From assembly GCF_003762835.1 (NCBI RefSeq), contig NZ_RJWA01000006.1:62001-126000 (forward strand): 64,000 nt of DNA, given 5' to 3'. The notes beneath the pieces are model-generated. The model ran no database searches and was not told the origin of the DNA. It saw only the letters and a list, made by a program, of their open reading frames with translations. Shown here piece after piece: positions 12,456 through 31,385 of this stretch (the first letter of the stretch is position 1; every line of letters starts with the position of its first letter). Origin of the DNA: Micromonospora sp. HM5-17 (GTDB taxonomy: Bacteria; Actinomycetota; Actinomycetes; Mycobacteriales; Micromonosporaceae). The position numbers and the translations under genes were made by a program.

Positions 12456-13679
12456 TCACGCCGTCGGCCACCAGCTTTGCCGCGTGGGGACGTCCTTGAC
12501 GAACACGATCGCGTCGTTGCTGGCCAGGTGGGCCGGATCCAACGGGATGTAGCCGAACCAGGGGGACACCCGGGGAGCGGGTGTCACGTCGCCGAGGAGA
12601 GCGGCCAGTCGGCGGGCGTCGACGACGTACCGGTCCTCCGGAAGCGCGTACAGGAGGCCTTCGATGGTCTCCGGGGGTGGGGTATCCACACCGTGGTGGC
12701 GGATCGTGCCGAGGGCCGTGGCCAGAAAGGCGTACGCCTCGCCGAGGTGGGCGCTGACGAGCGCTCCGGCGCTCCACCATTCCAGCGGCAGGTCGCCCAT
12801 CTGCATCCGGCTTCGGTTCCGCTGGAGATGCCCGTTGTGGGCGAACACCAGCGCCGGGCCCCGGGCGGCGATGGCCAGCAGGTTGGCCGCCATCATCGAC
12901 GCGCGCTGGCCCAGCAGGCGCGCCATCCGGCCCGGTGACGTGTCGGCCATCCAGTAGTGGTACCGCAGCAGCCCGGTGGCGGTGCGCCCGTACAGGCAGG
13001 CCCGTTCCCAGTCGTCCCGGGAGGACACCGCGAGCAGGTGTGGTGTCTGCGTGTCGAGCAGGGCTACCAGGTCGTCGGCGAGCAGCCGCAGCCGTGTGGC
13101 GTCGGGGGTCCGTCCCACGGACCGGGACGGGTCCCGCATGGCGGAGGGGTTGGTCCAGCGGTCGTCGGCGCCGAGCAGACTGTCGAGCGCCTCCACGGTG
13201 CAGGGAAGCAGGTCGGCGTCCACCCGGGCGGCGAGGTAGGCGTGGAGCGCGGTGAGGGCCTCCCGAGGGCTCGCGGCGCCGGTGATCTCCAGCGGGCCGT
13301 CGAAGCCGACGAACCGGACCTGCTCGGACGCCGGCCGGCCGTCGTTGTACGCGCGCATCCAGCGCACCAGCTCCCGGTTGGCCGGGGAGGCGCCGAAACC
13401 GTGGCTGAAGCCCCGCGCCATCACCTCGTCGAGGGTGCCGGCACCCGACGTGACGTAGTCGTCCACGAGCAGACCCATGAGGCAGTCGCTCTCGATCGCG
13501 ATCGTCCGGTAGCCCTCCTGTTCGACCAGGTGCCGGAAGAGATCGTTACGCAGGTCGAGCAGGACGTCCTCGCCGTGGGTGGGCTCGCCCAGGGCGAGGA
13601 GCCGCGGCCGGGTCGGCAGCAGCCCCAGCACGGTGGCGGCGTCGACGGGGTGGGCGGCATCGGTAACAGCAGCAGTCAT
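12456..13679 (-). CDS. Erythromycin esterase-like protein
   Basis: 407 residues from the ATG at 13679. Ere-family enzymes hydrolyse the macrolide lactone ring; other members have unknown substrates. LLALGEPTHGEDVLLDLR with its Glu and His, then TIAIESD and the RVWMRAYN-type helix region carry the family's active-site residues, and ALVFAHNGHLQRN supplies the second histidine pair. The length is normal for the family. It is divergent from the TioE-like regulator across a 9-bp-arm inverted repeat, which suggests that regulator controls it. Resistance to a macrolide is an inference, not shown. Confidence 0.85.
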   Translation of the reverse strand: MTAAVTDAAHPVDAATVLGLLPTRPRLLALGEPTHGEDVLLDLRNDLFRHLVEQEGYRTIAIESDCLMGLLVDDYVTSGAGTLDEVMARGFSHGFGASPANRELVRWMRAYNDGRPASEQVRFVGFDGPLEITGAASPREALTALHAYLAARVDADLLPCTVEALDSLLGADDRWTNPSAMRDPSRSVGRTPDATRLRLLADDLVALLDTQTPHLLAVSSRDDWERACLYGRTATGLLRYHYWMADTSPGRMARLLGQRASMMAANLLAIAARGPALVFAHNGHLQRNRSRMQMGDLPLEWWSAGALVSAHLGEAYAFLATALGTIRHHGVDTPPPETIEGLLYALPEDRYVVDARRLAALLGDVTPAPRVSPWFGYIPLDPAHLASNDAIVFVKDVPTRQSWWPTA

Positions 13680-13682
13680 ATC

Positions 13683-13712
13683 CTCAACCGTATCGTTGAA
13701 CCAACGGTTGAG
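13683..13712. promoter_or_regulatory. Divergent operator between the esterase and the TioE-like regulator
   Basis: CTCAACCGT (13683-13691) and ACGGTTGAG (13704-13712) are perfect 9-bp arms with a 12-base spacer. The spacer holds a further GTTG/CAAC pair (13695-13705). It starts 4 bases before the esterase start codon and lies 26 bases before the regulator's GTG, the expected place for autoregulated MerR-type control. Confidence 0.6.
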
Positions 13713-13737
13713 ACTTTCCCCCGAGGCGTCGATATCA

Positions 13738-14472
13738 GTGCGACAGAACTTTAAAAGCAGCGGACGGCTCAGGCCGGTTGACCTGGCACGTCCGCACGGC
13801 CTGTCCACCCAGGCGGTCCGGAACTATGAGGCGGCCGGGATCCTGCCCGCCGCCGACCGCACCCCGCACGGCTACCGCACCTACACCGTGCGGCACGCGT
13901 ACGCGCTGCGCGCGTTCCTCGCCCTCGTGCCCGGACACGGTCACCAGACGGCCAGCTCGATCATGCGGGCCATCAACCGTGGCGCGATCGACGACGCGCT
14001 CCGACTCATCGACGAGAGTCACGCCCAGCTCCTCGACGACCGTCGCACCCTCCAGGCCGTCGAAGCCGCGCTTGGCGACCTCGATCCCGTACCGCAGGAA
14101 CACGGCGACACGTTCGTCGGCCCCCTGGCCAGAAGGCTTGGCATCCGCCCCGCCACCCTGCGCAAGTGGGAGCGCGCCGGCCTGGTCCAGCCACGCCGCG
14201 ACCCGCGGACCGGCTACCGGGTCTACCGCGCGGCCGACGTCCGCGACGCCCTCCTCGTCCACCAGCTCAGACGGGGCGGCTACCTGCTGGAGCAGATCGC
14301 CCCGCTGATCGCCCAGGTCCGCTCCGCCGGCGGCGTCGCGCCCCTCGAGTCGATGCTGCGCGACTGGCGGGCCCGGCTCTCCGCCCGCGGCCGCGCCATG
14401 CTCACCGGCGCTGCCGCCCTGGAGGCCTACCTCGGCTGCCGGCCGGACCCCGCCCAGAGCCGGGCCGGGTGA
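13738..14472 (+). CDS. MerR-family regulator with two HTH domains, TioE-like
   Basis: 244 residues from the GTG at 13738, with GAGG 11 bases upstream. The first MerR helix-turn-helix (about residues 13-55, DLARPHGLSTQAVRNYEAAG) is followed by a linker and a second MerR-type domain (about 122-185, LARRLGIRPATLRKWERAGL plus GYRVYRAADVRDALLV). Double-MerR proteins of this kind are annotated as TioE-type regulators. No effector-binding GyrI-like domain is present; the C-terminus is a short helical tail. It is divergent from the erythromycin-esterase-like gene and probably binds the repeat at 13683-13712. Confidence 0.85.
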   Translation: MRQNFKSSGRLRPVDLARPHGLSTQAVRNYEAAGILPAADRTPHGYRTYTVRHAYALRAFLALVPGHGHQTASSIMRAINRGAIDDALRLIDESHAQLLDDRRTLQAVEAALGDLDPVPQEHGDTFVGPLARRLGIRPATLRKWERAGLVQPRRDPRTGYRVYRAADVRDALLVHQLRRGGYLLEQIAPLIAQVRSAGGVAPLESMLRDWRARLSARGRAMLTGAAALEAYLGCRPDPAQSRAG

Positions 14473-16974: not shown

Positions 16975-17772
16975 TCACGGCCACCGCTGCCGCGGGTCGC
17001 GGCCACGACCGGCCGCCGCCCGTCGGTCGAACACCGACCAGAGCGTCACCCGCCACAACGCCTCACCGATGATCACGGGGCTCATCTTGCTCGTCCCACG
17101 TTCCCGCTCGACGAACGTGATCGGCACCTCCACCGTCCGCAGACCCGCTCGGTGCGCCCGCCACGACAGCTCGACCTGGAAGGCGTACCCCTGGGAGGCG
17201 ACCGAGTCGAGGTCGAGCCGACGCAGCGCCGGCACCCGGTACACCCGGAACCCGCCGGTCGCGTCCGACAGCGGCATCCCCAGCGCCAGCCGCGCGTACA
17301 GGTTTCCGCCCCGGGACAGCAGCTGTCGGCGCAGCGGCCAGTTCACCACCCGCCCCCCGGCCATCCAGCGGGATCCGATCACCACGTCGGCGTCCCGGGC
17401 CGCGTCCAGCAGCCGCGGCAACTCCTCCGGAGCGTGCGAGCCGTCGGCGTCCATCTCCACCACCGCGGCGTAGCCGCGCTCGGCGGCCCAGCCGAACCCC
17501 GCCACGTACGCCGCGCCGAGCCCCTGCTTGCCCTCCCGGTGCAGCACGTGGATCCGGCCGTCGGCCTCCGCCATCCGGTCGGCGAGCACCCCGGTGCCGT
17601 CCGGGCTGGCGTCGTCCACCACGAGGATCTCCACCTCCGGCACGGCGTGCAGGATCCGGTCGACGATCACCCGGATGTTGTCGGCCTCGTTGTAGGTCGG
17701 CACCACCACCAGGACCCGGCCCACCCCCGGCCAGCCCGCCGCCCGCTCTGTCGCCCCGAACGCCTCATTCAC
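16975..17772 (-). CDS. ppm1: Polyprenol monophosphomannose synthase
   Basis: 265 residues. A GT2 glycosyltransferase that moves mannose from GDP-mannose to polyprenyl phosphate, the donor for lipoglycan and protein mannosylation outside the membrane. PTYNEADN and VVDDASPDGTG form the nucleotide-binding half, MDADGSHAPE holds the metal-binding aspartates and GGFRVYR / VEVPITFVERERGTSKM is the acceptor half. It has no membrane helices, as in the catalytic domain of mycobacterial Ppm1. Its ATG overlaps the lnt stop by four bases, so the two are translationally coupled. Confidence 0.9.
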   Translation of the reverse strand: MNEAFGATERAAGWPGVGRVLVVVPTYNEADNIRVIVDRILHAVPEVEILVVDDASPDGTGVLADRMAEADGRIHVLHREGKQGLGAAYVAGFGWAAERGYAAVVEMDADGSHAPEELPRLLDAARDADVVIGSRWMAGGRVVNWPLRRQLLSRGGNLYARLALGMPLSDATGGFRVYRVPALRRLDLDSVASQGYAFQVELSWRAHRAGLRTVEVPITFVERERGTSKMSPVIIGEALWRVTLWSVFDRRAAAGRGRDPRQRWP

Positions 17773-19442
17773 CGCTCCTCCGCATCCGCCGGGTCGCCGG
17801 CCGTCGCCGTACCATCCCCGGGGAGCGGCCGGCGACGGAGCACCACCGCCGTCACGAGGGCCGCCACGGCCACCGCCACCAGCGCCACTTCGGGCCAGAC
17901 GCCGACCCGGGTGGCGACCGTACGGGCATCCCCGAGGTGCATCTCGCGGGTCACCACCTCCTGGGTGTTGAACCCGGTCGCCCCGGTTACCCGCCCATCA
18001 GCCCCGACGAACCCGGACACCCCGACGGTCGAGGCCATCAACCCCTCCCGGCCGTGCTCCACCGCCCGCAGCCGTACCATCGCCAGCTGCTGCAACGCCT
18101 CGGCCTCGTTGAACGTGGCGTTGTTGGTCTGCACCGCCAGAAGCTGCGCCCCACCGGTGACGGTGTCCCGCACCACCGAGTCGTACGCCACCTCGAAGCA
18201 GATCACGTCCCCCAGCGACACCCCGCCGACCCGCAGCACTCCCGGCTCCGTACCGGCGACGAAGTCGTTGCGGACCCGGTCAACCTCCTTGCTGACCCTC
18301 CGGGCGATCGACCGCAACGGGACGTACTCGGCGAACGGCACCGGATGCCGCTTGACGTACACCTGGTCGGAGTCCCACCCGCTGCCCGGCATCCACACCA
18401 GCCCCGCGTTGCGCACCTGCCCCTCGCCCGGGCCGAGCAGCACCGCGCCGACCAGGATCGGCGCGCCGACCGCGTCGGCCGCCTCGGAGATCCGGGCCGC
18501 CGCCCGCGGTTCCCGGGTCGGATCGATGTCGCTGGCGTTCTCCGGCCACACCACCAGGTCCGGCCGCGGCGCCGCACCCGCCGCCACCCGCCGGGCGAGC
18601 GCGATCGTCGCGTCGGCGTGGTTGTTCAGCACCGCCTGCCGCTGCGCGTTGAAGTCAAGCCCCAACCGGGGCACGTTGCCCTGCACGATCGCCACCGTCA
18701 CCGTCCCGGCCCCGGAGCCGACCCCGACCGGGACGAGCAGCCCCGCCGCGACGACCGCGACCGCCCCGGCGACCAGGGCCACCGCCCGTCCACCGCCGGC
18801 CACCGTGACCCGCCGCCACGGCCGCCACACCGCCACCGTGAGCAGCCCGCCGACGAACGCCACCCCGAAGGTCACCAGCGGGGCGCCCCCCAATGCGGCC
18901 AGCCGCAGCAGCGGCGAGTCCCCCTGGCTGAACGCCAGCCGTCCCCACGGGAACCCGCCGAACGGGGTCCGGTCCCGCAGCGCCTCCTGCGCCACCCACA
19001 GCACCCCGGTCACCAGCGGCCACGACCAGCGGGCCCGGTCGACCAGGGCGCTGGTGACCGCCACCGCCGCCCCCAACAGCCCCAGGTAGCCCGCCTGCAA
19101 CCCGGACAGCAGCAGCCACGGCAGCTTCCCCGTGTGCAGGTTCGTCCAGGTCAGCATCGGCGCGAAGAACGCCAGCCCGGCCAGCGCCCCCAGCCCGAAC
19201 CCGGCGCGCAGCCGACGGCGGTGCACCGCCAGCGTGAACAGCAGCACACCCAGCGGCGCCGACCACCACCACCCGTACGGTGGGAACGCCAGCAACAGCG
19301 CCACCCCCGCTGCCGGCGCCGCCAGCAGCGCCGCGGCCCGCGGCAGCGGCCGCCCGACCGCCCGGCGCCGCGCACCCCCCGGCTCACCCCGCGGCCCGTC
19401 GCCCTCCGTCACCGCCGCCCCGGCCGTCTCCATCATCGTCAC
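17769..19442 (-). CDS. lnt: Apolipoprotein N-acyltransferase
   Basis: 557 residues from the GTG at 19442, which has GAGG 5 bases upstream; the frame stays open further but without a site. The N-terminal half has about six to seven membrane helices. The C-terminal carbon-nitrogen hydrolase domain holds the expected triad at E301 (WPEN), K364 (YVKRHPVPFAEYVP) and C415 (VICFEV). It N-acylates lipoproteins at the outer face of the membrane. In mycobacteria it works with, or is fused to, Ppm1; here the two are separate genes overlapping by four bases. A final hydrophobic helix anchors the C-terminus. Confidence 0.92.
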   Translation of the reverse strand: MTMMETAGAAVTEGDGPRGEPGGARRRAVGRPLPRAAALLAAPAAGVALLLAFPPYGWWWSAPLGVLLFTLAVHRRRLRAGFGLGALAGLAFFAPMLTWTNLHTGKLPWLLLSGLQAGYLGLLGAAVAVTSALVDRARWSWPLVTGVLWVAQEALRDRTPFGGFPWGRLAFSQGDSPLLRLAALGGAPLVTFGVAFVGGLLTVAVWRPWRRVTVAGGGRAVALVAGAVAVVAAGLLVPVGVGSGAGTVTVAIVQGNVPRLGLDFNAQRQAVLNNHADATIALARRVAAGAAPRPDLVVWPENASDIDPTREPRAAARISEAADAVGAPILVGAVLLGPGEGQVRNAGLVWMPGSGWDSDQVYVKRHPVPFAEYVPLRSIARRVSKEVDRVRNDFVAGTEPGVLRVGGVSLGDVICFEVAYDSVVRDTVTGGAQLLAVQTNNATFNEAEALQQLAMVRLRAVEHGREGLMASTVGVSGFVGADGRVTGATGFNTQEVVTREMHLGDARTVATRVGVWPEVALVAVAVAALVTAVVLRRRPLPGDGTATAGDPADAEER

Positions 19443-19856
19443 GCGTGCCTCACCGTCATGCCGATGCCGCCGCAACCGGCGCGGCGGCGAGGGATCCGTC
19501 CGCGGAAGGCTACCGGCCCGGACACGAAAATCGGGGCGCGACCGACGGCCGCGCCCCGATGCTCCCAGGCCCTTCCCGGCCGGTGCGGTAGGGCGAAGCA
19601 CCACGACCTTCGGACCGACCTGACGCAAACTGGCTGTTCCCGTCGGGCCGTTGTCTACTGGCCGCTCGCACCACCCTGCCCAGACACCGGTAACCGCGGC
19701 CGGTTCGCGCCGCCCCGCCGACCCCCGCCCGCTGGACCTGGCCGCCGCGACGAAATCGGTACGTGTCGCTCGGCCAGCGGACGAAGGGACGAAGCGAACA
19801 ACAGCCGCTTCCCGTTGTAGGACTCAAAGACGGTACGTGGTCCCCCCCGGGCTCTG
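19443..19856. other. Intergenic region upstream of lnt
   Basis: 414 bases between the mutL stop and the lnt start. Apart from the terminator-like hairpin at 19530-19560 I see no gene. The promoter of lnt probably lies at 19443-19525. Confidence 0.5.
19526..19560 (-). terminator. Intrinsic terminator for the minus-strand kam operon
   Basis: ATCGGGGCGCG (19530-19540) and CGCGCCCCGAT (19550-19560) are perfect 11-bp arms with a 9-base loop. On the minus strand the stem is followed by TTTT, a classic intrinsic terminator, about 300 bases after the mutL stop. Confidence 0.65.
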
Positions 19857-21278
19857 TCAACCGTCCTCGGCCAGTCGCGCAGCTCGATCCGGCGTGTCGT
19901 GCCCGGCGGGGCGCCGTCCCGGCCACCGGGCCGGGGCGGCGTCGCCGGCCAGGTGGCGGTGCAGCAACGCCGCCGCCGCCGTCGGGTGCGGCTCCGCCAG
20001 CAGACCGGCCGCCGCCAGCACGTAGGCGACGTCGACGACCGGCCGGGCCGCCCGTGGCACCGGCCACCCGCCGGCGTGATCGGCCAGCACCGCCGCCAGC
20101 ACCTCCGCCGCGCCGGCAGGGCCGGCGTGCCGCAGCACCCCACCCGAGCCGACCAGCAGCCGGACGTCCCGCAGGTTCCGGGCCGGCGTCCCGGCCACCC
20201 CGCGCGCATGCCGGCGGAACGCGATCACCGCGGCGAGCGCCGCCAGCCGACGCTCCACCGCCTGACCCGCCCGGTCACCGACCACCGCGGCCGGATCCGC
20301 CGCCAGCCGACGCGCCGCCGCCGCCAGCGGCTCCTCTTCCCCCGGGGCCAACAACCGCTCGCCAGCCGCCGCCTCGACCACCCCCGGGGCGCTCCACCGC
20401 ATCCCCAGGTCCCCCTCGACCGTCCGGGCCCGCCACAGCAGCCCCGCCGCCGGTGCGTCCGGCCCCCCGGCCCGCTCGTCCGGCACCAACACCGAGTACA
20501 CGTCGGTGGTCGCCCCACCCACGTCCACCACCGCCAGATCCCCACCGACCAGCTCGGCCAGCAGCGCCACCCCCGTCAGCACCGCGTCCGGGGTGGCGGC
20601 CCGGACCAGCCGCGCGAACCGGGGCCCCCGGGACAACCGCTTGCCACCGATCACGTGCCGCAGGAAGACGTCCCGGATCGCCGCCCGGGCCGGGCCAGGG
20701 ACCAGAACCCCGATCGACGGCAACACGTTCGCCGACACCGTCACCGGCACACCCCGCCCGGCGAGCAGCTCCGCCGCCGCCGGCGCCGCCGCGCCGTTCC
20801 CGGCCACCACCACCGGAACCCGCCACCGGGCCCGCGCCAGCCGCCCCGCGTTGTGCAGCAGCACCTCCGCGTCGCCGCCGTCGGTCCCACCGACCAGCAG
20901 CAGCACGTCCGGCCGCGCCGCACGCAGCGCCGCGAGCCCGGACGTGTCGAGCCGGCCCGCCCCCACGTGCACCACCCGGGCACCGGCGGACAACCCCACC
21001 TGGTGACCCGCCCGGGCGGTGATCAGCCGCTCGTAGCCGAGCACCGCCAGGCGCAGCCCGCCCCCCGCCGAGGAGCAGACGTACCACGAGGTCGCGGCGG
21101 TCGTCGGCAGCCCAGTGGTGGCGTCGGCAACCGCCGCGTCCAGGCCGTGCAGCACGTCGGTGGCGGCCGTCGTCGGCCGGGCCGCCGTCGCCACCAGCGC
21201 CCCGTCGGCGAGATCCACCACCGCCACCTTCGTCCAGGTGGAGCCGACATCGGCGCAGATCGCGTACGACGCCGTCAC
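19857..21278 (-). CDS. MutL-type ASKHA protein, probable aminomutase reactivator
   Basis: 473 residues of the glutamate mutase MutL family, ASKHA (actin/Hsp70-like) ATPases that accompany B12-dependent aminomutases. CADVGSTWTKVAVVDL is the phosphate-1 loop, VVDVGGATTDVYSV the phosphate-2 loop and LLVGSGGVLRH the adenosine motif. Being next to kamD/kamE it probably serves lysine 5,6-aminomutase, replacing inactivated cobalamin; that is an inference. No glutamate mutase S or E subunit is in view. Its ATG overlaps the kal stop by four bases. Confidence 0.85.
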   Translation of the reverse strand: MTASYAICADVGSTWTKVAVVDLADGALVATAARPTTAATDVLHGLDAAVADATTGLPTTAATSWYVCSSAGGGLRLAVLGYERLITARAGHQVGLSAGARVVHVGAGRLDTSGLAALRAARPDVLLLVGGTDGGDAEVLLHNAGRLARARWRVPVVVAGNGAAAPAAAELLAGRGVPVTVSANVLPSIGVLVPGPARAAIRDVFLRHVIGGKRLSRGPRFARLVRAATPDAVLTGVALLAELVGGDLAVVDVGGATTDVYSVLVPDERAGGPDAPAAGLLWRARTVEGDLGMRWSAPGVVEAAAGERLLAPGEEEPLAAAARRLAADPAAVVGDRAGQAVERRLAALAAVIAFRRHARGVAGTPARNLRDVRLLVGSGGVLRHAGPAGAAEVLAAVLADHAGGWPVPRAARPVVDVAYVLAAAGLLAEPHPTAAAALLHRHLAGDAAPARWPGRRPAGHDTPDRAARLAEDG

Positions 21279-21748
21279 CGCGGCCCGGCGTCCCGCGTCG
21301 CCCCGGCCGACGACGACGGCGCGTCCAGGCCGGTCGCCGGCGGCACCACCACGGTCCCGACCGCGGTCACCGCCAGCAACGGCGGATCAAGCACCTCCGC
21401 CGCCGACGGACCCCGGTCCGGCCGGCCCCGGCACACCACCCGGCAGGCGAACTCCAGCGTCCGGCTCCGGTTACCGACCCGGGTCACCGTCGCCTCCACC
21501 TCCAGCACATCCCCCGCCCGGACCGGCTCCCGGAACCGCACCTCCGCGTAGCCGGCGAACAGCCCCTCGTCCGCGTCGGTCCGGATACACACCTCGGTCG
21601 CCACGTCCCCGAACAACCCCAGGACGTACGCCCCGTCGATTAGGTTCCCCGCGTAGTGGGCATGCCCGTACGGCACGTACCGGCGATGCGTCACCGACAG
21701 CCCCAGCCGCGGATCCGCCGCCGTCCCGCCGTCCCGCCGGTCGCTCAT
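21275..21748 (-). CDS. kal: 3-aminobutyryl-CoA ammonia-lyase
   Basis: 157 residues, hot-dog fold. It removes ammonia from 3-aminobutyryl-CoA to give crotonyl-CoA, a late step of lysine fermentation. The block HAHYAGNLIDGAYVLGLFGD with VATEVCIRTDADEGLFAGY and the AGDVLEVEATVTRVGNRSR strand match the clostridial and fusobacterial Kal enzymes closely. A Pro/Ser-rich tail of about 20 residues extends beyond the usual end. It overlaps kamE and mutL by four bases at each side, so it is part of one translated unit. Confidence 0.87.
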   Translation of the reverse strand: MSDRRDGGTAADPRLGLSVTHRRYVPYGHAHYAGNLIDGAYVLGLFGDVATEVCIRTDADEGLFAGYAEVRFREPVRAGDVLEVEATVTRVGNRSRTLEFACRVVCRGRPDRGPSAAEVLDPPLLAVTAVGTVVVPPATGLDAPSSSAGATRDAGPR

Positions 21749-22545
21749 CCGCTCACCCCCACCCGCGCCGCCGACCGCGCCCCCGTCGCCTCCCCGTCAC
21801 CGGTGCCGGCCGGTGCCACCAGCCGGTGCACCAGGTAACTCGCCACCTCCCGCGGCGTCGTCCCCCGCCCGAAGATGCGGTCCACGCCGAGCTCCTCGGC
21901 CATCGTCTCGTCGAACCGCGGGCCGCCGACCACCAGCAGCGGCCGTCGGCCCGCCGGCATCGCCTCCCGGAACGCCGCCGACATCTCCCGCACGTTGTGC
22001 AGGTGCGCGTCCCGCTGCGTCACCACCTGCGACACCAGCACCGCGTCCGCCCGCGCCGCCCGGGCCGCCGCCACCAGGTCCGGCACGCTCACCTGCGACC
22101 CCAGGTTCGTCACCGCCATCTCCCGGTAGTACTCCAGCCCCTTCTCCCCGGCGATCCCCTTGACGTTCAGGATCGCGTCGATCCCCACCGTGTGCGCGTC
22201 CGTGCCGATGCACGCCCCCACCACCGACAACTTCCGCCGCAGCCGCCGCCGGATCAGCGCGTTGATCTCCTTCGCCGACAGCAGCGGGAAGTCCCGCTCC
22301 ACCACCCGCACCGCCGACAGATCCACCAGATGGTTCACCCGCCCGTAGATGACGAAGAACGTGAACCGATCCCCCATCTGCCGGGCGTGCACCAGCATCG
22401 CGGGATCCATCCCCATCTTCGCCGCCAGCTGCAGCGCCGCCCCCTCCGCCCGCTTGTCGTGCGGCACCGGCAGGGTGAACGACACCTGCACCATCCCGTC
22501 CCCGGTGCTGTCCCCGTACGGCCGCACCACCGGCCCGCCCGTCAC
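21745..22545 (-). CDS. kamE: Lysine 5,6-aminomutase beta subunit (cobalamin-binding)
   Basis: 266 residues. With KamD it moves the terminal amino group of beta-lysine (or D-lysine) from carbon 6 to carbon 5, using PLP and adenosylcobalamin. The N-terminal dimerisation part (about 15-100) precedes the Rossmann B12 domain. DAHTVG at 116-121 is the DxHxxG base-off motif with H118 as the cobalt ligand, and K129 (NVKGIAG) sits 11 residues later, the spacing of the PLP lysine in the Clostridium enzyme. Start overlaps the kamD stop by four bases. Confidence 0.93.
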   Translation of the reverse strand: MTGGPVVRPYGDSTGDGMVQVSFTLPVPHDKRAEGAALQLAAKMGMDPAMLVHARQMGDRFTFFVIYGRVNHLVDLSAVRVVERDFPLLSAKEINALIRRRLRRKLSVVGACIGTDAHTVGIDAILNVKGIAGEKGLEYYREMAVTNLGSQVSVPDLVAAARAARADAVLVSQVVTQRDAHLHNVREMSAAFREAMPAGRRPLLVVGGPRFDETMAEELGVDRIFGRGTTPREVASYLVHRLVAPAGTGDGEATGARSAARVGVSG

Positions 22546-24176
22546 GACGCATCACCTCCGGTCCGCGACCCGGCCTCCAACAGCTCCGTCGCCGGGTTGT
22601 AGTAGCCGTCCGCCCGCGCCACCACGCCCTCCAGGCCCCGTCCCCGGTCCGCGGGCCGCCGGGTGATCCCGAACGTGCCGGCCCCGATCGCCGTCAGCAG
22701 CCCCTCGTCGACAATCCGCTCCAGCAGGGTCACCGCCTCGGCCAGCACCGTGTGCGCCCGACGCTGGATGAACCCGCCCGGCGCCGGCACGAAGTCCTCG
22801 TGCAGCCCCCCGGCCGCCCCCAGCACGTACCGGACGTTCTGCAACGCGATGTCCCGGTCCGACAACCACGGCGTCATCACCGCCTCGGTCATCATCCCCA
22901 CCAGCAGGATCCCCTGCCCCGTCAGCGTCCCCGCCAGGTTGAAGAACCCGTCGAGCAGGTTGCCCCGGAACACGTCCCCGGTCATGTGCCGGGTCGGCGG
23001 CATCCACTTCAACGGCGCGTTCGGAAACAACTCCCGGGCCAGCAACGCGTGCGCCAACTCCAGCCGGAACGACTCCGGCAGATCCGGGTCGATCTCGAAC
23101 GCGTGGCCCAGCCCCAACTGCCAGTCCGCCAGCCCCGCCTCGTGCGCGAAGTACTCGTTCAACAGCTGCGACACCGTCACCGTGTGCGCGTCCGCCACCG
23201 CGTCCGCCGTCGTCAGGTAGTTGTCCTCCCCGGTGTTGATGATGATCCCCGCCCGGGCGTGCACCTGCCGCGAGAACCGCTGGTCGACGAAGGTCCGAAT
23301 TGGATTGATGTCCCGGAACAGGATCCCGTACATCGAGTCGTTCAGCATCATGTCCAGCCGCTCCAGGCCGGCCAGCACCGCCATCTCCGGCATGCACAAC
23401 CCGGACGCGTAGTTCGTCAACCGCACGTACCGGCCCAGCTCCCGCGACGACTCGTCCAACGCCGCCCGCATCAACCGGAAGTTCTCCTGCGTCGCGTACG
23501 TCCCCGCGAACCCCTCCCGGGTCGCCCCCTCCGGCACGTAGTCCAACAACGACTGACCCGTCGACCGGATCACCGCGATCACGTCCGCGCCCGCGCGAGC
23601 CGCCGTCTGCGCCTGCGGAATGTCCTCGTAGATGTCCCCCGTCGCCACGATCAGATAGATCCACGGACGGCGCGGCGGATCCCCGTAGCGGCGCACCATC
23701 CGCTCCCGCTCCGCCCGGCGCCGGTCGATACGCCGCAGCCCCGCCCCGACCGCCCGCCGGGCCGCCGCCCGGGCCGACCGGGCCGCCCGACCCGACGGCA
23801 CCTCGAACCGCACCGACCCCGCCGCCGCCTTCTGCGCCAGCAACGTCACCGCCGCACCCAGGTCCCCCGACCTGCCGGCCGCGGGCCCGAACTCCCGCAC
23901 CACGGCGTCGAAGACCGGCAGCGCCACCCCGTACGCCAGGCCCACGTCGGCGGCCACCGCGTCCACCAGCCGGTTCACCCACGGAATCCCGTCCGGATCC
24001 GCCCCCGACACCCCGGCCAGCCGCAACACCGCCCGCTCCACCGACACCGTCGTGTGACGCCGGGCCAACTCGACCACCGGCTCACCGGCCCGGCGCGCCA
24101 ACTCCCGCGCCCGCCGCACCAGCACCGGGTCCAACCCCAGCTTCCCGCCCGGCCGCACACCGTCACCGTCGGACAC
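22542..24176 (-). CDS. kamD: Lysine 5,6-aminomutase alpha subunit
   Basis: 544 residues, a TIM-barrel subunit that binds the adenosyl group and substrate and docks onto KamE. The family landmarks DVIAVIRSTGQSLLDYVPEG, GFAGTYATQENFRLMR, YASGLCMPEMAVLAGLERLD and INTGEDNYLTTADAV are all present, and the length fits. The first 130 residues are a less conserved helical region. It starts 24 bases after the amidohydrolase stop and is translationally coupled to kamE. Confidence 0.93.
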   Translation of the reverse strand: MSDGDGVRPGGKLGLDPVLVRRARELARRAGEPVVELARRHTTVSVERAVLRLAGVSGADPDGIPWVNRLVDAVAADVGLAYGVALPVFDAVVREFGPAAGRSGDLGAAVTLLAQKAAAGSVRFEVPSGRAARSARAAARRAVGAGLRRIDRRRAERERMVRRYGDPPRRPWIYLIVATGDIYEDIPQAQTAARAGADVIAVIRSTGQSLLDYVPEGATREGFAGTYATQENFRLMRAALDESSRELGRYVRLTNYASGLCMPEMAVLAGLERLDMMLNDSMYGILFRDINPIRTFVDQRFSRQVHARAGIIINTGEDNYLTTADAVADAHTVTVSQLLNEYFAHEAGLADWQLGLGHAFEIDPDLPESFRLELAHALLARELFPNAPLKWMPPTRHMTGDVFRGNLLDGFFNLAGTLTGQGILLVGMMTEAVMTPWLSDRDIALQNVRYVLGAAGGLHEDFVPAPGGFIQRRAHTVLAEAVTLLERIVDEGLLTAIGAGTFGITRRPADRGRGLEGVVARADGYYNPATELLEAGSRTGGDAS

Positions 24177-24200
24177 CGGCGACCACCCCCACCCGTGTAC

Positions 24201-25838
24201 TCACCCGACACCCTCCTCGAAGATCACCGACCCGCGCAGCACCGTCCGCCGGCACACCGGCAACGGCGTCGGATCCCCCGGCCCCCGCGGCTCCGGATCC
24301 GCCGACACCAGCACCGGCAGGCCACCGTCCACCCCCGCCGGCGTCGACCACACCGCGAACGTCGCCGCCGCACCCGGCGCCAACACCCCCTCCGCCGGCC
24401 GCCCAGCCACCACCCCCGACCCGTCCCACCCCTCCGGCAGCGCCCGCCACCCGCCCCGGGTGTGCGCCGCGAACGCCGCCCGCACGGTCAACCGCTGCGC
24501 CGGGTTGAAGTGCGCCACCGCCGCCCGCACCGACCCCCACGGATCCAGCGGCGTCACCGGCGAATCCGACCCGAACGCCAACGTCACCCCCGTGGCGTGC
24601 ATCGCCCCCAGCGGATTCGACGCCAACGACCGCTCCACCCCCAGCCGCGCCGCGTACATCCCCCGGTCGCCACCCCACAACCGGTCGAACGCCGGCTGCA
24701 TGCTCGCCACGATCCCGAACTCCACGAACCCGGCGATCAACCGCTTGTCCATGAGCTCGGCGTGCTCCACCCGGTGCCGTGCCGCCCGCACCCGGTCCAC
24801 CCCGAGCCGCTCCGCCGCCGCCGCGAACCCCGCCAACACCGTCCCGAGCGCCGCGTCCCCGATCGCGTGGAACCCGCCCTGCACCCCCTGCTCCGCACAG
24901 TCCAGCAGATGGTCCCGGACCTCCTCCGCCGACAGGTACCCGTGCCCACACGCCCCCGGCTCGCCATCCGCGTACGGCTCCGACAGGTGGGCCGTCCGCG
25001 CCCCCAACGCCCCGTCGGCGAACAGGTCACCCCCGGCACCCACCGCACCCAGCTCCCGGGCCCGCGTCGCCCCCCGCAACTCGCCCCAGTAGCCGTACAC
25101 CTCCGGCAACCCGTCCCCCGACCGGGACAGCACGGCGACGAAATCCTCCTCGCCGGAGATCTCCGGGCCACCGCACTCGTGCACCGCCGCGATCCCCAAC
25201 GACGCCGCGCGCCGCAACGCCACCTCCTGCGCCGCCCGCCGCTGCGCCGCCGTCACCGAGCCCAGCGCCACCTCCCGTACCAGGTGGTGCGCCTCCCGCC
25301 GCACCCACCCCGACGGGTCGTACCCCGGCGCCCGCACCACCTGCGGCGCCGCCGCCAACAGCGCCGAGGAACACAGAGCCGAATGGATCGACGCCTGCGA
25401 CAGATAGACCCGCCGGCCCCCAGCCGCCCGGTCCAGCTCCGCCGCGTCCGGCACCCGCCGGTCCGCCCACCCCGACTCGTCCCAGCCGTGCCCCAGCACC
25501 ACCGCGTCCGCCGGCAACGTCGCCGCGGACGCCGCCACCGCCGCCAGCAGCTCCCCCGCCGACCGCACCCCCGACAGGTCCAACCCCGACAACGCCAGAC
25601 CGGTGTCCGTCGTGTGCACGTGCGCGTCCACGAACGCCGGCGTCACCAGGGCGCCGTCCAGCTCCACCACCCGGTCCGCGCGGGGCGCGTCCGCATCGGC
25701 GCCGACCCAGGCGATCCGCCCGCCCCGGACCAGCAACGCCGTCGCCCGCGGCTCGGCCGGACAGTACAACCGCCCACCCCGGTACAGCGTCGAAGGCTCC
25801 GCCGAGGAATCCGTCACCAGCGCCGAAGGGTTCGTCAT
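24201..25838 (-). CDS. Metal-dependent amidohydrolase (Amidohydro_3, YtcJ-type) inside the kam operon
   Basis: 545 residues. The amidohydrolase-3 fold is clear: VDAHVHTTDTGLALSGLDLS with the HxH metal ligands near residue 72, the hydrolase histidines in GFHAIGDAAL and RHRVEHAELMDK, and the terminal metal Asp in FGSDSPVTPLDPWGS. Members hydrolyse cyclic amides, formamides or N-acyl amino compounds. No known step of the beta-lysine route needs such an enzyme. It follows kdd by 4 bases and precedes kamD by 24. A role on lactam or acylated forms of pathway intermediates is a hypothesis. Confidence 0.85.
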   Translation of the reverse strand: MTNPSALVTDSSAEPSTLYRGGRLYCPAEPRATALLVRGGRIAWVGADADAPRADRVVELDGALVTPAFVDAHVHTTDTGLALSGLDLSGVRSAGELLAAVAASAATLPADAVVLGHGWDESGWADRRVPDAAELDRAAGGRRVYLSQASIHSALCSSALLAAAPQVVRAPGYDPSGWVRREAHHLVREVALGSVTAAQRRAAQEVALRRAASLGIAAVHECGGPEISGEEDFVAVLSRSGDGLPEVYGYWGELRGATRARELGAVGAGGDLFADGALGARTAHLSEPYADGEPGACGHGYLSAEEVRDHLLDCAEQGVQGGFHAIGDAALGTVLAGFAAAAERLGVDRVRAARHRVEHAELMDKRLIAGFVEFGIVASMQPAFDRLWGGDRGMYAARLGVERSLASNPLGAMHATGVTLAFGSDSPVTPLDPWGSVRAAVAHFNPAQRLTVRAAFAAHTRGGWRALPEGWDGSGVVAGRPAEGVLAPGAAATFAVWSTPAGVDGGLPVLVSADPEPRGPGDPTPLPVCRRTVLRGSVIFEEGVG

Positions 25839-25842
25839 GGCC

Positions 25843-26892
25843 TCAGTCTGCCGCCAGCCGGTCCTCGAACAGCGCGCGCACCCCCGGGACCTGCCGTACC
25901 AGACCCAGCGCGTACTCCGCGTGACCAGGAACGTACCCGTTGCCGATCAGCATCGTCACGTCCGCCGCCAACCCCTCCGCCCCCAACGCGGCGGCGGCGA
26001 AACTCGTCGCCATCGAGAAGAAGATCACCGTTCCGCCGTCCGCCGTCGCCAGCACCGCCCCGTGCTCGCACCCCGGCACGTCGACACAGACCACCGTGAT
26101 GTCCGCCGGACCCCCCAGCGCCCCGGTCACCGCCGCCGCCAGGCCCACCGGATCGCGCGCGTCGGCCACCACCACCTCCGACGCCAGCCCGGCGGCGACC
26201 AGACGGTCCCGCTCCGCCGTGTCCCGCACCACCCCGACCGTTCGGGCGGCTCCCGCTGCCCGGGCCGCCGCCAACGACAGCGACCCGCTCTTGCCCGCGC
26301 CCCCGAGCACCGCCACCGTCGGTGTCCCGTGCCTACGGACCGTCCGGGCGGTCAACGCCGGTGCCCCGCAGACGTCCAGCACCGCCAGGCTGAGCCGGGG
26401 ATCCAGATCGTCCGGCAGCACCGCCACGATCGATCGGGCGAACAGGATCGCGTGCCCCGCGCACGGCACCTGTTCGCCACGGCCGTCCCACCGGGACAGG
26501 TCGTCGGTGATCGCCAGCGGCGTCAACGTCAGCGACACCAGCGTCGCGACCCGGTCGCCGGGCGTGACCGGTAGCGGCGATTCCGGCCCCACCTCGTCGA
26601 CGACACCGACCAGCATCCCACCCGAGCCGGTGACCGGATTGTGCATCTTGCCGCGGGTGGCGATGATGTCGCGCACCTCCGCCCGGACCGCCGCCCCGTC
26701 CCCGCCGTGCTTCTCCGACAACTGCCGGAAGCTCGCCGCGTCCAGGTTCAGCCGCTCCACCGTCACCCGGACCTCGTCGGGCCAGATCTCCGGGCGCGCA
26801 TCCAGCCGGTACGCCGCCTGCGGCAACACCCCGACCGGCTCCACCACCCGGTGCAGCCCCACCGGCGAGGAGGTCGACCACTCTCGCGCCAT
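25843..26892 (-). CDS. kdd: L-erythro-3,5-diaminohexanoate dehydrogenase
   Basis: 349 residues from the ATG at 26892, with AAGGGG 8 bases upstream; a GTG three codons earlier is possible but badly spaced. NAD-dependent oxidative deamination of 3,5-diaminohexanoate to 5-amino-3-oxohexanoate. The N-terminal GLHRVVEP segment, the KMHNPVTGSGGMLVG block and the Rossmann motif VAVLGGAGKSGSL match the Kdd family. IGNGYVPGHAEYALGLVRQ near the end is also typical. It is the first gene of the minus-strand operon, divergent from kamA. Confidence 0.92.
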   Translation of the reverse strand: MAREWSTSSPVGLHRVVEPVGVLPQAAYRLDARPEIWPDEVRVTVERLNLDAASFRQLSEKHGGDGAAVRAEVRDIIATRGKMHNPVTGSGGMLVGVVDEVGPESPLPVTPGDRVATLVSLTLTPLAITDDLSRWDGRGEQVPCAGHAILFARSIVAVLPDDLDPRLSLAVLDVCGAPALTARTVRRHGTPTVAVLGGAGKSGSLSLAAARAAGAARTVGVVRDTAERDRLVAAGLASEVVVADARDPVGLAAAVTGALGGPADITVVCVDVPGCEHGAVLATADGGTVIFFSMATSFAAAALGAEGLAADVTMLIGNGYVPGHAEYALGLVRQVPGVRALFEDRLAAD

Positions 26893-26959
26893 GGCACACA
26901 CCCCTTACCGCCGGTACACCCCCGGGCCGGCACCCCGCGATCCAACACCACAATCTGAC

Positions 26960-26994
26960 GGAAAACTTCCGGCAGGATATTTCCTTAGCCGGAA
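26960..26994. promoter_or_regulatory. Regulatory region between kdd and kamA with inverted repeats
   Basis: TTCCGGC (26967-26973) and GCCGGAA (26988-26994) are perfect 7-bp arms around an AT-rich 14-base spacer. An overlapping GGAA-AAC-TTCC lies at 26960-26970. In the 159-base divergent gap these fit binding by an Lrp/AsnC-type dimer, and such a gene lies at 29.5-30.1 kb. Confidence 0.5.
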
Positions 26995-27051
26995 ATTCTC
27001 CAGTAGCGTTCGCGGTGAGGCTGCCATCCGCCCGACAGTTCAGGAGGCCCC

Positions 27052-28476
27052 GTGACCCAGATCCAGGAACCCGCCGCCACGGTCCTCACCACCCGCCGCG
27101 CACCCACCCCGCCCCGCGCCGGCACCCCCGGGCAGCCGTACGAGTACCGCCGCCGCCCCCTCGTCGAACCCGACTGGACCCGCTTCCCGGGCTGGCGCCA
27201 GGTCACCCGAGACCAGTGGGAATCCGCCCAGTGGCAGCGCGCCAACTGCATCAAGAACGTCCGGCAGCTCCACGCCGTCCTCGGCGACACCATCGACGAG
27301 GACTGCTACGCCGAACTCACCGCCGACCAGGCCCGGTACGCCACGATGTCGATGCTCGTGCCGCCACAGATGATCAACACGATGATGCCGGACGGGCCGC
27401 CCACCACCGACGTCTTCCGCGCCGACCCGATCCGGCGCTACATGCTGCCCCTGGCCAGCGACCGTCGCACCGACTGGCCCTCACACCCCTACGCCACCCG
27501 CGACTCGCTCCACGAGCACGACATGTGGGTCGCCGAGGGCCTCACCCACCGCTACCCGACCAAGGTCCTCGCCGAACTCCTCGCCACCTGCCCGCAGTAC
27601 TGCGGGCACTGCACCCGAATGGACCTGGTCGGCAACTCCACCCCGACCGTCGACAAGCTCCGGCTCAGCCTCAAGCCCCTCGACCGGTACGACGCCCACA
27701 TCGCCTACCTCCGCGCCCACCCCGAGGTACGCGACGTCGTCGTCTCCGGGGGCGACGTCGCCAACGTCCCCTGGCGGCACCTGGAGTCGTACCTGATGCG
27801 ACTCCTGGCGATCGAGACCGTCCGGGACATCCGCCTCGCCACCAAGGCGCTCGCCGCCCTGCCCCAGCACTGGCTCCAGCCCGAGGTGGTGGAGGGTCTG
27901 GAACGCGTCGCCCGTACCGCCGCCCGGCGCGGTGTCAACCTCGCCATCCACACCCACGTCAACCACGTCCAGTCGCTCACGCCACTGGTCGCCCGGGCCG
28001 CCCAGACCGCTCTCGAGGTCGGCGTACGCGACGTCCGCAACCAGGGGGTGCTGCTGCGGGGGGTGAACGCCACCGCCTCCGACCTGCTCGACCTCTGCTT
28101 CGCGCTCCAGGGCGAGGCCGGGATACTCCCGTACTACTTCTACATGTGCGACATGATCCCCAACGCGGAACACTGGCGCATCCCGGTCTGGCACGCCCAG
28201 CAACTGCAGCACGACATGATGGGCTACCTGCCCGGCTACGCCACCCCGCGGATCGTCTGCGACGTGCCGTTCGTCGGCAAACGCTGGGTCCACATGGTCA
28301 CCGAGTACGACCGCGAGCGCGGCATCTCGTACTGGACCAAGAACTACCGTACGTCGCTCGAGGCCGGGGACGAGAGCGCATTGGACCGGCGCTACGCCTA
28401 CTACGACCCGATCGACACCCTGCCCGAGGCCGGCCGGGCCTGGTGGGCCCGGCACGGCGCTCAGCAGGTCCACTAG
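27052..28476 (+). CDS. kamA: Lysine 2,3-aminomutase, radical SAM
   Basis: 474 residues, GTG start with GGAGG 5 bases upstream. Converts L-lysine to L-beta-lysine with SAM, a [4Fe-4S] cluster and PLP. The cluster motif is C180-x3-C184-x2-C187 (CPQYCGHC). D367 (YMCDMI) and D404 (VCDVPF) align with the two aspartates that hold the lysine side-chain amino group in the Clostridium enzyme. The PLP lysine would be K410 in DVPFVGK, where the usual motif is DAPGGGGK, one residue shorter here. No C-terminal zinc-cysteine tail is seen. It is divergent from kdd. Confidence 0.92.
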   Translation: MTQIQEPAATVLTTRRAPTPPRAGTPGQPYEYRRRPLVEPDWTRFPGWRQVTRDQWESAQWQRANCIKNVRQLHAVLGDTIDEDCYAELTADQARYATMSMLVPPQMINTMMPDGPPTTDVFRADPIRRYMLPLASDRRTDWPSHPYATRDSLHEHDMWVAEGLTHRYPTKVLAELLATCPQYCGHCTRMDLVGNSTPTVDKLRLSLKPLDRYDAHIAYLRAHPEVRDVVVSGGDVANVPWRHLESYLMRLLAIETVRDIRLATKALAALPQHWLQPEVVEGLERVARTAARRGVNLAIHTHVNHVQSLTPLVARAAQTALEVGVRDVRNQGVLLRGVNATASDLLDLCFALQGEAGILPYYFYMCDMIPNAEHWRIPVWHAQQLQHDMMGYLPGYATPRIVCDVPFVGKRWVHMVTEYDRERGISYWTKNYRTSLEAGDESALDRRYAYYDPIDTLPEAGRAWWARHGAQQVH

Positions 28477-30245: not shown

Positions 30246-31385
30246 TCAGCGGGCGAGCGAGCGGGCGATGACCAGGCGTTGGATCTGGTTGGTCCCCTCC
30301 ACGATCTGCAGCACCTTCGCCTCGCGGAAGTAGCGCTCGACCGGGTGGTCCACCACGTAGCCCGCGCCGCCGAGGACCTGGACCGCCTCGGTGGTGACCC
30401 GCATCGCGGTGTCGGTGGCGAAGAGCTTCGCCTTGGCCGCTTCCGCGGAGTACGGACGGCCCGCGTCCCGCAGCCGGGCGGCGGCCAGCGTCATCGCCCG
30501 GGCCGCCGCCACCTGGGTGGCGAGGTCGGCGAGGAGGAACCCGAGCCCCTGGAACTCGATGATCGGCCGGCCGAACTGCTCCCGCTGCCGTGCGTAGGTG
30601 ACCGCGTAGTCGAGAGCCGCCTGCGCCAGCCCCACCGCGCAGGCGGCGATCCCGAGCCGGCCGGCGTCGAGCGCCGTCATGGCGATCCGGAAGCCGGCGC
30701 CCTCCGCACCCACCAGGCGGTCGGCCGGGACCCGGGCGCCGTCGAAGGCGATCTGCGCGATCGGAGAGGAGCGCAGCCCCATGGTGCGCTCCGGCTTCTG
30801 CGGCACGATGCCGGGGGTGGCGGCGTCCGCGAGCAGACAGGAGATGCCGCCGGGTCCGGGGCCGCCGGTGCGGCAGAAGACAGTGTAGAAGTCGGCGACG
30901 CCGGCGTGGGTGATCCAGGCCTTGGTACCGGAGACGACGTACTCGTCGCCGTCCCGGACCGCCCGGGTGGCCAGGGCTGCCGCGTCCGAACCGCCCTGGG
31001 GCTCCGAGAGGCAGTACGCGCCGAGCAGGTCGCCGCCGATCATGTCCGGAAGCAGCTTGCGCACCTGCTCGCCGCCGTAGGTGGCCGCCGGGTAGCAGGC
31101 GAGGGTGTGCACGCTGACCGCCTCGGCCACCGCCAGCCAGCGGCTCGCCAGGATCTCCAGCACCTGGAGGTAGACCTCGTACGGCTGGGCCGCGCCGCCG
31201 TACTCCTCCGGGTAGGGCAGGCCCAGCAGACCGGCCCCGCCGAGCCGGCGGAGCACCTCGCGGGGGAAGACCCCGCGGGCCTCGAAGTCGGCCACCTGCG
31301 GGGCGAGTTCCCCGTCGGCGATCTCGGTGACGAGGCCGAGGAGCTCGTACGCCTCCTCGGTGGGCAGAACACGTTCGACGTTCAC
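30246..31385 (-). CDS. Acyl-CoA dehydrogenase
   Basis: 379 residues, GTG start. FAD enzyme forming the 2,3-double bond of acyl-CoA thioesters. LSEPQGGSDAAAL and the KAWITHAG strand form the flavin region, ALDAGRLGIAACAVG and REQFGRPIIEFQGLGFLLAD the helical domain, and the catalytic glutamate lies in the VEGTNQIQRL segment near the C-terminus. The chain-length class cannot be read. Its GTG overlaps the stop of the M24 peptidase gene (GTGA), so the two are coupled. The product would suit catabolic flux from amino acid breakdown. Confidence 0.92.
   Translation of the reverse strand: MNVERVLPTEEAYELLGLVTEIADGELAPQVADFEARGVFPREVLRRLGGAGLLGLPYPEEYGGAAQPYEVYLQVLEILASRWLAVAEAVSVHTLACYPAATYGGEQVRKLLPDMIGGDLLGAYCLSEPQGGSDAAALATRAVRDGDEYVVSGTKAWITHAGVADFYTVFCRTGGPGPGGISCLLADAATPGIVPQKPERTMGLRSSPIAQIAFDGARVPADRLVGAEGAGFRIAMTALDAGRLGIAACAVGLAQAALDYAVTYARQREQFGRPIIEFQGLGFLLADLATQVAAARAMTLAAARLRDAGRPYSAEAAKAKLFATDTAMRVTTEAVQVLGGAGYVVDHPVERYFREAKVLQIVEGTNQIQRLVIARSLAR

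Follow-up and report, generated by a model that had tools for sequence, protein, structure and literature searches.

Why should an actinomycete, from a group that we take to be aerobic, carry a compact set of genes for lysine fermentation, and how could such a set be completed there? The question is raised by a 64,000-nucleotide stretch of Micromonospora sp. HM5-17 (contig NZ_RJWA01000006.1; hereafter the window), in which a kam block at 19857-28476 consists of kamA and, divergent from it, a six-gene minus-strand row running from kdd to a mutL/glmL-like gene (26901-19857). Our answer, to which we give a probability of roughly 0.8, is that this block supplies the early and central steps of an aerobic lysine degradation pathway built from lysine-fermentation enzymes, with an unlinked Kce and an oxidative end. 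Gene identities, gene order, co-occurrence, key residues and end-step enzymes are read from the sequence, and from these we infer substrates, direction, aerobic operation and the roles of MutL and the amidohydrolase.

In the excerpted account of PMC3149608, lysine fermentation in anaerobes such as Clostridium and Fusobacterium runs through KamA, KamDE, Kdd, Kce, Kal, butyryl-CoA dehydrogenase and AtoDA, the last steps being those of butyryl-CoA dehydrogenase and an acetoacetate:butyrate CoA transferase. A sequence-only reading of the window had recognised kamA, kamD, kamE, kdd and kal in a divergent, coupled arrangement. All five genes are where it placed them, with KamD, KamE, Kdd and Kal above their NCBIfam cut-offs (Table 1), and the coupling is visible as overlaps and short gaps in the minus-strand row. 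Since four-base overlaps join mutL to kal (21275-21278), kal to kamE (21745-21748) and kamE to kamD (22542-22545), and gaps of only 24 and 4 bases separate the amidohydrolase gene from kamD and kdd, respectively, the arrangement suggests a single six-gene transcription unit. Two members of the block, an Amidohydro_3 protein and a MutL/GlmL-family protein, had not been named in that reading.

KamA scored below both of its models (170 bits against a cut-off of 199.2 for TIGR00238, and 158 against 525 for TIGR03820, AblA), and aligns over 368 residues with the Clostridium lysine 2,3-aminomutase 2A5H (phmmer, E 3e-40). In an alignment of 78 sequences, one of them gapped at the key positions, the CxxxCxxC motif (C180, C184, C187), R189, D367, D404 and K410 were invariant in all 77 sequences with letters there. 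By alignment, R189, D367 and D404 correspond to R134, D293 and D330 of 2A5H, which we take to be the carboxylate-binding arginine and the two aspartates for the epsilon-amino group, while K410 lies one residue off K337, presumably the lysine that binds pyridoxal phosphate (PLP), a match that needs a one-residue loop gap not found in the phmmer alignment. Judged by these retained key residues, the protein is probably a lysine 2,3-aminomutase of a divergent kind. KamE likewise kept its DxHxxG motif and Lys129, presumably its PLP lysine, in 85 of 85 sequences.

The earlier reading had also stated that kce is missing, which holds within the 64 kb but not for the genome, where a Kce-like protein is encoded on another contig. 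Beside the kam genes of relatives, too, none was seen: neither of the genome's two BKACE proteins has a match in any of 80 named kam loci (flanks of up to 10 kb, some truncated at contig ends). The genome-wide DUF849/kce search that it had proposed, done here with PF05853 (BKACE), gave two places, both on contigs other than that of the window (which received no separate BKACE scan); one of them, KCE1, is Kce-like and the other is distant. The best NCBIfam match of KCE1 is the Kce model NF052387 (276 bits, under the cut-off of 382; 3-oxoadipate model, 211 bits), and its nearest solved structure is Kce 2Y7D (E 4e-62). KCE1 carries Glu14, a residue that contacts the 5-amino group in Kce according to excerpts of PMC10470551. 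Glu occupies this position in 33 of 33 distinct orthologues (KCE1 included), and Ile in all three paralogues. The other Kce positions compared are kept in KCE1 except for Thr106, replaced by Ser. The absence of kce is refuted as to the genome, and a Kce role is predicted for KCE1.

To follow this gene more widely, we used a class sample of 296 genomes and a family sample of 200 Micromonosporaceae. Because NF052387 failed to separate orthologues from paralogues (no class-sample genome exceeded its cut-off, and a paralogue in G281, only 37-39% identical to KCE1, outscored KCE1 itself with 284 bits), identity to KCE1 was used as the separator; values in the class sample were bimodal, either at least 54%, taken as orthologues, or at most 39%. 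There, kamD was found in 64 of the 296 genomes, across 25 families of the sample (61 over the cut-off; G306, G348 and G358, which fell below it, are counted). Both genes were present in 61 genomes, kamD only in 3, KCE1 only in 3 and neither in 229 (Fisher p about 1e-55, a statistic that ignores relatedness), and the two occurred together in 23 of the 25 kamD-bearing families. In the family sample, kamD was found in 190 of 200 genomes (189 over the cut-off), every one of them with KCE1 at E 4.4e-112 or better. No genome there had kamD only, two had KCE1 only (G002 and G104, drafts of many contigs), and eight had neither; six of these eight are rated at least 93% complete, and two (G033 and G163) show only matches of about 1e-47, in the paralogue range. 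Nothing argues more strongly for a role of the unlinked KCE1 in the kam pathway than this joint absence inside a single family. KamD and Kce identities correlate across six genomes with r 0.70, but the 15 pairs are not independent and the evidence is weak.

These distributions bear on an alternative that we consider improbable, namely that KCE1 is a housekeeping BKACE of other specificity and that some unknown enzyme, perhaps in concert with the amidohydrolase, handles 5-amino-3-oxohexanoate. Its sub-cut-off score and unlinked position would fit such a role, as would its neighbours, a ygfZ-like gene and a presumably asparaginase-like gene (NCBIfam gave no match to the latter) that recurs beside 22 of 30 orthologues. 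Against it stand its presence and absence along with kamD on an almost one-to-one basis, the conserved Glu14, and physical linkage in two other genomes. In G472 (locus L104), an orthologue 68% identical to KCE1 lies divergent from kdd-kamD-kamE-kal, at the place that kamA takes in the window (no kamA match was found in this 19-kb stretch), and in G487 (locus L110, C1:4767000-4782000) a kce 55% identical to KCE1 closes a kdd-kal-kce row. Involvement of the amidohydrolase is further opposed by 13 of 80 loci with no match to it. As a separate observation, a TetR gene adjoins the L110 row, and no kamD was found in G487, so its source of 3,5-diaminohexanoate may differ.

With KCE1 included, lysine degradation by this set would proceed as follows. 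KamA would convert L-lysine to L-beta-lysine, which KamDE (with B12 and PLP) would turn into L-erythro-3,5-diaminohexanoate, and Kdd would oxidatively deaminate the latter to 5-amino-3-oxohexanoate. From this and acetyl-CoA, KCE1 would form acetoacetate and 3-aminobutyryl-CoA, and Kal would split 3-aminobutyryl-CoA into crotonyl-CoA and ammonia. From there on the set would probably part from fermentation. Crotonyl-CoA would be hydrated and oxidised via ordinary beta-oxidation, and acetoacetyl-CoA synthetase, in place of a butyryl-CoA:acetoacetate CoA transferase, would activate acetoacetate at the expense of ATP, so that each lysine would give a net three acetyl-CoA and two ammonia.

The oxidative end is proposed because no PF01144 protein was found and an acetoacetyl-CoA synthetase is present. 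A CoA transferase, which the sequence-only reading had suggested looking for, gave no match to PF01144 or TIGR02428 in this 96% complete genome (6 and 7 of 14 control genomes, respectively, have one), and the acetoacetyl-CoA synthetase found instead scored 793 bits, over a cut-off (521) that none of the 14 controls passed (NF002937, 940 against 639). A 3-hydroxybutyryl-CoA dehydrogenase-like protein is over the cut-off of PF02737. The ending first imagined for the window, crotonyl-CoA followed by beta-oxidation, is likely, but the nearby acyl-CoA dehydrogenase (30246-31385) that had been counted in with it is probably a bystander: crotonyl-CoA oxidation does not require such an enzyme, which is why we take it as a neighbour, and homologues lie within the flanks of only 31 of 80 loci. 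As pathway parts, both this dehydrogenase and the adjoining M24 peptidase were rejected. The same enzyme is central to a reading that we regard as very improbable, in which the set serves genuine fermentation, or redox balance when oxygen is limiting, and the dehydrogenase reduces crotonyl-CoA to butyryl-CoA. Its best NCBIfam match is indeed an acryloyl-CoA reductase, far below the cut-off (352 against 640) and not diagnostic; the missing PF01144 protein and the lack of homologues in any of the Kribbella or Nocardioides loci both speak against such a scheme.

The two added genes would fit aerobic lysine degradation as auxiliaries. The mutL/glmL-like gene is the only PF13941 place of the genome, and its product does not reach the equivalog cut-off of either NF040745 (311 against 475) or NF040744 (210 against 600), models of a group that describes accessory proteins of other B12 mutases. 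The 5,6-aminomutase is prone to suicide inactivation (PMC12429584, in the text excerpted), and on these two grounds, by analogy, MutL probably maintains KamDE as a reactivase or chaperone. Elsewhere, a second MutL-family gene adjoins a distant aminomutase alpha-like match (G280:C1:2598382-2602379; NF052384, 146 bits), which is possibly an ornithine-type aminomutase. For the amidohydrolase, the nearest solved structures (3icj/3igh) are uncharacterised, and its predicted model (mean predicted local distance difference test score of 88.5) best matched two uncharacterised hydrolases and then generic amidohydrolases; neither sequence nor fold comparison gave a clue to its substrate. It is probably a pathway auxiliary, perhaps for lactam or acyl-amide clean-up.

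Among named relatives, 80 loci out of 572 relatives found were compared, with flanks of up to 10 kb (several loci end at contig ends), including Micromonospora, Plantactinospora, Asanoa, Kribbella and Nocardioides; the nearest named KamD among the matches listed is that of Plantactinospora endophytica (90%). Gene order is conserved, with matches to kamE and kal in all 80 loci, kdd in 75, kamA in 73, the amidohydrolase gene in 67 and mutL in 55. The loci without an amidohydrolase belong to Nocardioides and Marmoricola (other Nocardioides loci have one), and those of Kribbella and Nocardioides lack mutL.

Table 1. Features of the kam block in the window and of the unlinked Kce-like gene.
Feature	Position	Strand	Support
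kamA, divergent lysine 2,3-aminomutase (radical SAM, PLP), predicted	27052-28476	+	below NCBIfam cut-offs; aligns with 2A5H
divergent intergenic region, probable shared operator/promoter	26902-27051	.	conserved 48-bp block 26959-27006
kdd, L-erythro-3,5-diaminohexanoate dehydrogenase	25843-26901	-	NF052381 263 bits, cut-off 200
amidohydrolase (Amidohydro_3)	24201-25838	-	PF07969
kamD, beta-lysine/D-lysine 5,6-aminomutase alpha subunit	22542-24176	-	NF052384 674 bits, cut-off 600; PF09043
kamE, 5,6-aminomutase beta subunit, B12-binding	21745-22545	-	NF052385 350 bits, cut-off 280
kal, 3-aminobutyryl-CoA ammonia lyase	21275-21748	-	NF052388 189 bits, cut-off 160
mutL/glmL-like accessory gene	19857-21278	-	PF13941 432 bits; TIGR01319 222 bits, cut-off 204
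KCE1, Kce-like protein	G000:C23:70688-71497 (L001:1486-2325)		PF05853 314 bits, cut-off 24.8

Several of the reading frames scanned had no family match and are probably not genes, and an Rfam search of 15000-36000 gave nothing at gathering score. Just past mutL, 16975-19628 (minus strand) holds an apolipoprotein N-acyltransferase-like gene and then a family 2 glycosyltransferase; an erythromycin esterase family protein (PF05139) is encoded farther out at 12456-13808 (minus strand).

Between kamA and kdd, the conserved block contains three GGAA/TTCC-type dyads (by eye) and was recovered by pattern in 35 of the 77 intergenic regions compared. It is a probable, still putative operator/promoter shared by kamA and the kdd row; a sigma-70 and terminator scan of 26800-27150 found nothing. 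Upstream of kce, a TAGGAT box stands just before the presumed start in 24 of 31 Micromonosporaceae stretches (counted by eye), a position that suggests leaderless kce starts. Co-regulation of kce with the kam genes was tried and is kept as a lead only: of the kce loci from Micromonosporaceae, 31 in number, three (L121, L177, L183) had a left-half score above all control windows of their own locus and five (L121, L174, L182, L183, L184) had such a right-half score, two loci having both. The kam-like sequence before kce in L121, L183 and L184 hints at a shared regulator.

Several observations weigh against aerobic lysine degradation by this set. KamA and Kce are each under their curated cut-offs, the 3-hydroxybutyryl-CoA dehydrogenase-like protein is under its subfamily cut-offs (NF004474, 321 against 408; NF005875, 301 against 319), and, with an assembly 96% complete, the absence of a CoA transferase is not final. 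The kam operator block was not found upstream of kce in this genome, and few relatives have a kam-like site there. The PF13941 protein occurred in only 12 of 20 genomes examined (19 with kamD), and by coordinates just two of these genomes, both from this family, have it adjoining kamD. Exceptions to the co-occurrence run in both directions, with kamD lacking a KCE1 orthologue in G222 (80% complete), G348 (68%) and G458 (100%), and KCE1 lacking kamD in G268 (94%), G441 (81%) and G487 (100%). Of these, G458 has kamA-kdd-kamD-kamE, no kal in its 19-kb locus and no Kce orthologue, and the front half of the pathway can therefore serve another purpose.

This last genome also provides the case for a reading that we find quite improbable for the window, that the cluster supplies beta-lysine or 3,5-diaminohexanoate as a natural-product building block instead of degrading lysine: in G458, an AMP-binding ligase, a luciferase-like monooxygenase and an ATP-grasp protein are encoded close to the kam genes. 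Against this, the kal of the window overlaps kamE, its genome has Kce, and Kal has a match in all 80 loci; kamD in 190 of 200 family genomes is likewise unlike most secondary metabolism. The G458 locus itself (L105, G458:C1:599000-618000) perhaps makes a product from beta-lysine or 3,5-diaminohexanoate.

Set beside classical lysine fermentation, the pathway proposed here would share the first five steps, with KamDE, Kdd and Kal over their curated cut-offs and the Kce specificity residue kept. It differs in the unlinked kce, in the lack of a PF01144 match together with the predicted ATP-dependent activation of acetoacetate, in the amidohydrolase and MutL-type genes added to the cluster, and in a host group taken to be aerobic; the notion of a beta-lysine catabolic set in such a group, put forward from the window alone, is supported as a reading. 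In a Pseudomonas, aerobic degradation of beta-lysine reportedly runs via 6-N-acetyl-beta-lysine (work of Barker and colleagues). Both routes would use beta-lysine aerobically, that of the Pseudomonas through different intermediates and, as reported, without the 5,6-aminomutase or 3,5-diaminohexanoate. Like GlmL/MutL of B12-dependent glutamate mutase and ornithine aminomutase, the accessory protein is of family PF13941 with its gene beside a B12 aminomutase, although the neighbour here is KamDE and the scores stay below NF040745 and NF040744. A Cloacamonas variant of lysine fermentation, which uses the 3-aminobutyryl-CoA aminotransferase Kat (PMC3149608, same excerpts), also leaves the classical route after Kce, whereas Kal is present in the cluster here.

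Overall, we see a conserved and apparently aerobic variant of a known pathway, ordinary in its parts; what makes it interesting is how widely it occurs, the unlinked clade to which its Kce belongs, and the two genes added to it. A literature search of limited coverage, which does not establish a lack of prior print, found no description of this route in actinomycetes, and a 2009 report, in its excerpted part, gives no more than 2 to 26 organisms for enzymes such as 5,6-LAM (PMC2667541). A bolder extension, which we offer tentatively and would not bet on, is that much of the Actinomycetes uses the lysine-fermentation route as its standard way of breaking down lysine aerobically, working via an unlinked, sub-cut-off Kce clade and ATP-dependent acetoacetate activation. 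Two oxygen-era helpers would have been gained, a MutL-type KamDE reactivase and an amidohydrolase specific to the pathway, the latter to rescue an intermediate that has cyclised or been acylated (e.g., the lactam of 5-amino-3-oxohexanoate).

If our main reading of the block is right, actinomycetes such as Micromonospora, Nocardioides and Kribbella would degrade lysine without decarboxylase, transaminase or oxygenase, using radical-SAM and B12 enzymes in the presence of oxygen, which raises the question of how radical enzymes survive air. It would also account for the near-universal kamD of the sampled family, assign a function to a BKACE gene that is unlinked and below the curated cut-off, and imply a supply of crotonyl-CoA and acetyl-CoA from lysine in polyketide producers.

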